From NCBI GenBank assembly GCA_028066595.1, contig JALCBJ010000058.1, forward strand, positions 1 through 35,350: a DNA stretch of 35,350 nucleotides. Direction: 5' to 3'. Under the pieces are notes generated by a model. It searched no databases. It saw nothing but the letters and a program-made list of their open reading frames with translations, and was not told the DNA's origin. Origin of the DNA: Thermoanaerobaculia bacterium. GTDB lineage: Bacteria > Acidobacteriota > Thermoanaerobaculia > Multivoradales > J023. The translations under genes and the position numbers were made by a program. This document shows, piece after piece, positions 29,122-30,882 of this stretch (within the stretch, counting starts at the first letter, position 1; every line of letters starts with the position of its first letter).

Positions 29122-30882
29122 TCACCGAGTCCGACGCCGCTCCAGGCTGGCTGCCGCGGCAATGTCCGGCGGATCGTAGAGCAGATCCCCGCCCGCACCT
29201 CGTGACAACTCCGCGGCGTTGGCCTCGTCGGTATCGATGTGCATCTCCAGGACGTAGCTGTCTTTGACGCGCACCAGGACGTCGCCGAAGGTCAGGTCAC
29301 GCTCACCGCCTTGGATCGCGACTTCGACTTCGTCGCCGTTCTCGACGCCATAAGCCTCGGCGTCCTTGGGATGCATGTGGATATGACGCCAGGCGCAGAT
29401 GAGGCCCTCGTTCAGGTGCAGTGTGCCCGCCGGTCCCACCAGCGTGACGGGAGCAGAACCCTGGGTCTTGCCCGAGGCGCGGATCGGGGCGTCGACCCCC
29501 AAAGCAAACTCGTCCGTGCGTGAGATCTCGATCTGGGGCGACTTGCGCAAGGGTCCGAGGACTCGAACTCCTTCGATCTGACCTCTTGGTCCTACCAGCG
29601 TGAGGGTTTCGCGGGCGGCGTACTGGCCGGGCTGGGAGAGGTTCTTGTAGACCGTGAGCTCGCTCCCCTCGCCAAAGAGGGCATCCATCGACGCTCGGTC
29701 GAGGTGGACGTGGCGCCCGCTGATCGCGATCGGTACCGGACCGGGCGAGCGGACCTCGGTATCGCCGCGGGCGACGCGAGCGGTCTGAAGCGCGGTCATC
29801 AGCTCTTCGTTGGTCTTCACTACGAGTGTTCGGACCGAGGCCCGATCGGTGCTGACATCCACCACTGGCACCTCGGCGCTGACGCGGGCGTCGTGGTTGC
29901 GATCCTCGTCGAGCCGGACACCGAAGAAGTCGAGTTGCTGCAGGATGCGTCGACGCATCTGGGCGCTGTTCTCGCCGATGCCGCCGGTGAGGACGATGGC
30001 GTCGACGCCGCCCATGGCTGCGGCGTAAGCGCCGATATAACGTCGGACGGCGTGGGCGTAGACCGTGATGGCCAGGCGCGCCCGGTCGTTGCCGGCGGCC
30101 GCCTGCTCTTCAATGTCGCGAAGATCGTTGCCGAGGCCGCTGAGACCCGCCAGCCCGCTCTCGCGATTGAGGACGCGATCGGTCTCGTCGACACCGAGTT
30201 CGCGAACCAGTTGCAGCACCGCACCCGGATCGAGGTCGCCGCAGCGCGTTCCCATCACCAGGCCTTCGAGAGGCGTCAGACCCATGGACGTCTCGACCGA
30301 TGCTCCCAACTCGATGGCGCAGGCGCTGGCGCCGTTGCCCAGGTGTAGCGTGATCAAGCGCAAGTCCTCGAGATCGCGCTCCAGGTACTCGGCGGCACGG
30401 CGGGCGACGTAGGAGTGGGAGGGGCCATGGAAACCGTAGCGGCGGATGCCCAGTCGTTGCGCCAGGTCGAGATCGAGAGCGTAGTGAATGGCGCGACGCG
30501 GCAGGCGACGGTGGAAGGCGGTGTCGAAGATCGCGACGTGGGGAAGCGAAGGGAGAGCCTCGCGAGCCAGGCGGATGCCGGCGAGGTTGGCAGGATTGTG
30601 CAGCGGAGCCAGCGGTACGCATTCTTCGATGGCTGCCACCACCTGATCGTCGATCAACGTGGCGTCGTGAAACCGCTCGCCTCCGTGGACCACTCGATGG
30701 CCGACCGCTTCTATCTCCGTCAGGTCGACTCTTTCCAGAATCTCGCTGACTGCTGCCCGATGCGACGTGCCGCCGTCGCCGATCCGTTCGACGACGCCGA
30801 CGCTCAGCGCCATACGGGTTTCAGTATCGATCAGCCGATACTTGACGCTCGATGAGCCGCAGTTGATGACCAGCACTTTCAT
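29122..30882 (-). CDS. Acetate kinase-PduL phosphotransacylase fusion
   Basis: This 586-residue polypeptide contains two complete enzymes. Residues about 1-365 are acetate kinase: VLVINCGSSSVK, GHRVVHGGERF, FDTAFH (D120), GFHGPSHSYVARRAA, HLGNG (H180), GTRCGDLDP (R213), ESGLAGLSG, GGIGENS and TNEEL. Residues about 383-560 are a PduL-type phosphotransacylase, with zinc-ligand motifs ISGRHVHLD (H391, H393) and CAWRHIHMHPKDA, and SQPGQYAARETLTLVGPRG. PduL turns acetyl-CoA and phosphate into acetyl phosphate; acetate kinase then makes acetate and ATP, or the reverse. No stop or frame break lies between the domains; an unstructured linker of about 20 residues joins them. No microcompartment shell genes or clear targeting peptide are present. 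A second in-frame start nine bases upstream is possible; MKVLVIN fits family N-termini. Confidence 0.93.
   Translation of the reverse strand: MKVLVINCGSSSVKYRLIDTETRMALSVGVVERIGDGGTSHRAAVSEILERVDLTEIEAVGHRVVHGGERFHDATLIDDQVVAAIEECVPLAPLHNPANLAGIRLAREALPSLPHVAIFDTAFHRRLPRRAIHYALDLDLAQRLGIRRYGFHGPSHSYVARRAAEYLERDLEDLRLITLHLGNGASACAIELGASVETSMGLTPLEGLVMGTRCGDLDPGAVLQLVRELGVDETDRVLNRESGLAGLSGLGNDLRDIEEQAAAGNDRARLAITVYAHAVRRYIGAYAAAMGGVDAIVLTGGIGENSAQMRRRILQQLDFFGVRLDEDRNHDARVSAEVPVVDVSTDRASVRTLVVKTNEELMTALQTARVARGDTEVRSPGPVPIAISGRHVHLDRASMDALFGEGSELTVYKNLSQPGQYAARETLTLVGPRGQIEGVRVLGPLRKSPQIEISRTDEFALGVDAPIRASGKTQGSAPVTLVGPAGTLHLNEGLICAWRHIHMHPKDAEAYGVENGDEVEVAIQGGERDLTFGDVLVRVKDSYVLEMHIDTDEANAAELSRGAGGDLLYDPPDIAAAASLERRRTR

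Follow-up and report, generated by a model that had tools for sequence, protein, structure and literature searches.

A single-chain acetate kinase–PduL fusion from a Thermoanaerobaculia bacterium, a probable bifunctional enzyme outside microcompartments

The stretch of DNA analyzed here (hereafter the window; 35,350 nucleotides from a Thermoanaerobaculia bacterium) encodes a protein in which an acetate kinase (AckA) and a PduL phosphotransacylase are joined in one chain. Judging from its sequence, this protein is very probably (we estimate a probability of about 0.88) a soluble, monocistronic bifunctional enzyme which interconverts acyl-CoA, acyl phosphate and acid outside any microcompartment. 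The C-terminal PduL domain, a di-zinc phosphotransacylase, would catalyze acyl-CoA + Pi <-> acyl phosphate + CoA, and the N-terminal AckA domain would catalyze acyl phosphate + ADP <-> acid + ATP; the net reaction, acetyl-CoA + Pi + ADP -> acetate + ATP + CoA, would be reversible. The fusion would supply the only acetate kinase found in the genome of the window, and replace or supplement the canonical pair of Pta and AckA. With that pair it would share, as far as the protein families indicate, the same two-step chemistry, whereas canonical Pta (PF01515) has an unrelated fold and the window protein uses PduL, with both steps on one chain. The activity of both halves, the dominant substrate and the direction of the reaction are inferred here from sequence, and acetyl phosphate is presumed to exchange with the cytosolic pool instead of staying on the enzyme.

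The gene is a single uninterrupted open reading frame of 586 amino acids on the minus strand of the window, with the following parts:

29122..30882, minus strand: coding sequence of the AckA–PduL fusion, 586 aa plus stop; stop at 29122, ATG at 30882 (MKVLVINCGSSSVKY)
29773..30882, minus strand: acetate kinase domain, residues 1–370 (the PF00871 match covers 1–364)
29734..29772, minus strand: interdomain linker, residues 371–383, about 13 residues
29206..29733, minus strand: PduL (PTAC) domain, residues 384–559, matched by PF06130
29125..29205, minus strand: C-terminal tail, residues 560–586, poorly conserved

An alternative in-frame ATG 9 bases upstream, at 30891, would give a product of 589 amino acids. 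Both halves are recognized by Pfam (Acetate_kinase PF00871, E 2e-131; PTAC PF06130, E 4e-74) and by NCBIfam, in which ackA (TIGR00016, 419 bits with a cut-off of 293) and phosphate propanoyltransferase (NF011652) each score over the curated cut-off. Acetate kinase and PF06130 PduL domains are hence found on one polypeptide, as in the AckA–PduL fusion class. The uninterrupted frame 29122–30882, its coordinates and the domain order that a sequence-only reading had reported are correct according to these matches, and the linker, which it had placed at 29730–29790, lies within that interval. The window contig belongs to a fragmented draft of 228 contigs, but nothing else was found to support an assembly or frame artefact merging two adjacent genes. 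Such an artefact is practically inconceivable and was ruled out, because other, independent genomes encode the domain order in one frame: the identical layout is present in Neolewinella agarilytica DSM 24740, and also on plasmids of Polaromonas naphthalenivorans CJ2 and Paracoccus sp. Arc7-R13.

The N-terminal half is an acetate kinase (ASKHA fold) by its family score, which is over the cut-off, and by its residues. Positions N7, S10, S12, K14, R91, H123, D148, H180, H208, N211, R241, D283, R285, G331, N335 and E384 of Methanosarcina thermophila AckA (1G99) correspond to N7, S10, S12, K14, R63, H95, D120, H152, H180, N183, R213, D253, R255, G301, N305 and E359 of the fusion, which keeps, among others, the equivalents of N7, R91, D148, H180, R241 and E384; we take the positions compared to have the catalytic and active-site roles assigned to them. 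The predicted model superimposes on solved AckA structures with a TM score, by target length, of up to 0.94. The fold and the active-site residues are common to the M. thermophila and mycobacterial acetate kinases (1G99, 4DQ8, 3R9P), but those enzymes stand alone and the window AckA is fused. In the alignment with clostridial AckA, the AckA half is about 20–28 residues shorter after residue 38. As short mycobacterial AckA structures give the best size agreement in Foldseek, the missing stretch corresponds to a known short form of AckA. Compared with the aligned clostridial AckAs, the loop near residue 330 is about 5 residues longer in the fusions.

In the C-terminal half, all six zinc ligands are present (H391, H393, E452 and H500, H502, H548); the complete sets of AckA and PduL motifs claimed from the letters alone are thus borne out at the residues checked. 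In Rhodopseudomonas palustris PduL (rPduL; 5CUO/5CUP), residues H48, H50, E109, H157, H159, H204 and R103 are the counterparts of H391, H393, E452, H500, H502, H548 and R446. Phosphate would be contacted by R446 and S470 (R103 and S127 of rPduL, both conserved) and CoA by S388, K413, R440, L442, F459 and N555, the roles of the metal, phosphate and CoA sites being those given in the relevant passages of PMC4784909. The model comparison with 5CUO indicates the same fold (TM score by target length, 0.78), and the metal, phosphate and CoA residues checked are identical. Over all sites examined, the only departures from 5CUO and 1G99 are the non-catalytic T182P, F284L, I339M and A387M. The two proteins differ in that R. 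palustris PduL stands alone and is packaged in a microcompartment, whereas the window protein carries AckA at the N-terminal side, where the encapsulation peptide would be. The pocket residues checked match this propionyl-type PduL; acetyl-CoA, the substrate first proposed, is still the probable one, and propionyl-CoA/propionate is possibly used as well. Pairwise dN/dS values, 0.09–0.15 for PduL and about 0.09–0.28 for AckA, point to purifying selection on both domains.

Apart from the fusion, no AckA and no PTAC was found in the genome of the window. The gene stands alone, outside any operon; no neighbor gene is common to the fusion loci compared, and operon context was rejected as an explanation since the neighbors differ. 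A protein of the Y1 (IS200-like) transposase family is encoded nearby, at 33814–34758 on the plus strand. PF01515 matches two proteins of this genome, a MaeB-type malic enzyme (contig C101) and a separate Pta-like protein (contig C55). The latter, a frame of 369 amino acids, scores slightly below the cut-off of TIGR00651 and above that of NF007233. Besides the fusion, this Pta-like gene is a further candidate phosphotransacetylase and could supply that step. The PduL domain may also be kinetically weak. One could hence suppose that the AckA half alone works and that PduL has just a regulatory or structural role, for which the Pta-like domain fused at the C-terminus of MaeB malic enzymes, described as non-functional (PMC4207490), would be a precedent. 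We regard this as very improbable: the six zinc ligands and the examined phosphate and CoA contacts are intact, the PduL domain is constrained as much as AckA or more, and PF01515 had no match in five of the seven searched fusion-bearing genomes of other taxa. Because PF01515 was not found there, the fusion may be the only phosphotransacetylase in those five. In all seven, no AckA lies outside the fusion locus (a second match in G434 lies within the same frame); the absence of PF01515 and of a further AckA has to be read with the possible incompleteness of these assemblies in mind. The bifunctional enzyme originally proposed therefore stands as regards the single chain, the intact active sites and the lack of a microcompartment, and its bifunctionality is probable.

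The database search for the same domain order shows that it recurs in several phyla. Five genomes of the same order (G001, G002, G003, G006 and G020) encode the fusion in one frame, with 68–85% identity to the window protein, and genomes of Myxococcota, Gammaproteobacteria, Acidimicrobiales and Bacteroidota encode it at about 46–67% identity. Outside the order of the window, the phyla with this arrangement are Myxococcota, Pseudomonadota, Actinomycetota and Bacteroidota, named isolates included. It is also present in one frame in a genome of another class of the same phylum (G121), as it is in the named genomes and plasmids L016–L022, L124, L125 and L181, the last an IMG/VR contig. Plasmid carriers are Polaromonas, Paracoccus and Sinorhizobium, the last with a broken frame. 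On the Polaromonas plasmid pPNAP02 (L124, 9236–15000) the gene row is fabI, fusion, DUF3141 and MFS transporter, with polyphosphate kinase and a heavy-metal P-type ATPase close by. The rarity implied by the sequence-only reading was overstated: fusions occur in several phyla and have been in print since 2016 (PMC4784909). Sampling 59 genomes of the order turned up PTAC solely in the fusion and in one remnant; other parts of the phylum also have PduL as a separate protein. The remnant (L147, 885–1274, on contig C5 of G010), probably a decayed fusion copy, has only the last 74 fusion residues attached to unrelated sequence, with H548 replaced by N. The copy in G020, a genome of a different family (L141, 14267–16030), is 85% identical to the window fusion, compared with 82% for the copy from the same genus, and lies about 100 bases from the end of contig C3; either gene transfer inside the order or misbinning of the contig would account for this closeness. 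In G121, the protein (L146, 8824–11145, minus strand, contig C195) has 773 amino acids, with an N-terminal cyclic-nucleotide-binding domain (PF00027) followed by AckA and PduL, and is possibly ligand-regulated. The AckA tree divides the fusions into three groups: a main one with 13 members (99/95), a plasmid group with three (100/100), and G121. For neither domain was one clade of all fusions rejected (p-AU 0.20 for AckA, 0.32 for PduL); from these trees, one old fusion that then spread, or two to three fusions, are possible.

As PduL is best known from microcompartments, we searched for BMC shell proteins (PF00936). None was found in the window's genome (G000), which extends to the whole genome the earlier remark that shell genes are absent, nor in G001. 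Shell proteins were found in 11 of the 20 genomes searched, and seven of the BMC-bearing genomes (G004, G005, G007, G008, G015, G016 and G018) lack a PTAC gene. Since shell and PTAC genes do not co-occur in these genomes, the fusion and BMCs are independent here and a link between them was rejected. BMC loci of the order such as L150 and L151, in these PduL-less genomes, contain shell genes that include frames with two BMC domains. AckA fills the N-terminal side of PduL in the fusion, which was classed as free of an encapsulation peptide and, by the search for PF00936 shell proteins, as independent of microcompartments.

Joining both domains might serve to channel acetyl phosphate between the two active sites, PduL to AckA, so that less of it reaches response regulators or is spent on protein acetylation; channeling was already proposed by Erbilgin et al. 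2016 (PMC4784909). The linker sequence drifts among fusions and its length is nearly constant, the offset from AckA to PduL being 377–379 in the 13 main-group relatives measured and 376–383 in others; such spacing suggests a constrained geometry. Against this, the AlphaFold model gives pLDDT values below 50 across residues 376–388 and does not fix the interdomain packing, weak evidence given the shallow PduL alignment, and the residue comparison reveals nothing novel. Moreover, in two alphaproteobacterial relatives a phosphoketolase gene or remnant lies beside the fusion, and acetyl phosphate made by phosphoketolase would have to enter from solution. In L181 the fusion gene (1537–3564, plus strand) and a phosphoketolase-like gene (3594–6044, minus strand) converge, and on the S. 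meliloti plasmid W03 (NZ_CP021216.1) a phosphoketolase remnant lies immediately downstream of the frame-broken fusion. We consider channeling unlikely, and the retention of acetyl phosphate suggested at the outset is unsupported in view of the linker confidence and of these two loci. Phosphoketolase does not explain the window gene, because it is absent from G000 as well as from G001, G003, G006 and G020, G002 having only a 60-residue partial match; as a partner of the window gene it was rejected. A wider scenario, in which a channeling or regulated acetyl-phosphate node spread between phyla as the sole Pta–Ack route, shielding response regulators and, in one lineage (G121), coming under direct cyclic nucleotide control, appears quite unlikely.

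With regard to the soluble bifunctional enzyme that we favor, Erbilgin et al. 2016 (PMC4784909) report, in the passages considered, that PF06130 is found within multidomain proteins that lack encapsulation peptides and mostly carry the annotation Ack, and suggest that PduL takes the place of Pta and that fusion may facilitate channeling. These proteins appear to be the same PF06130–acetate kinase fusion, likewise free of an encapsulation peptide, although in those passages the mention is a passing statement that comes with neither fusion sequences nor assays, and the likeness rests on the description rather than on domain order or taxa. As both are stated there, the finding and its interpretation, that is, the fusion type and the channeling idea, are already in print. 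No biochemically characterized AckA–PduL fusion was found in the literature covered. New here are the near-constant linker length, the occurrence of PduL solely in fused form across the genomes sampled from the order, and the relative with an added cyclic-nucleotide-binding domain. In many bacteria PduL would thus also act as a plain soluble phosphotransacylase, joined to the kinase of the next step, and several fusion-bearing bacteria have no detectable Pta. With a homologue from a tractable isolate one could test directly whether the fusion alters free acetyl phosphate, a signaling metabolite.
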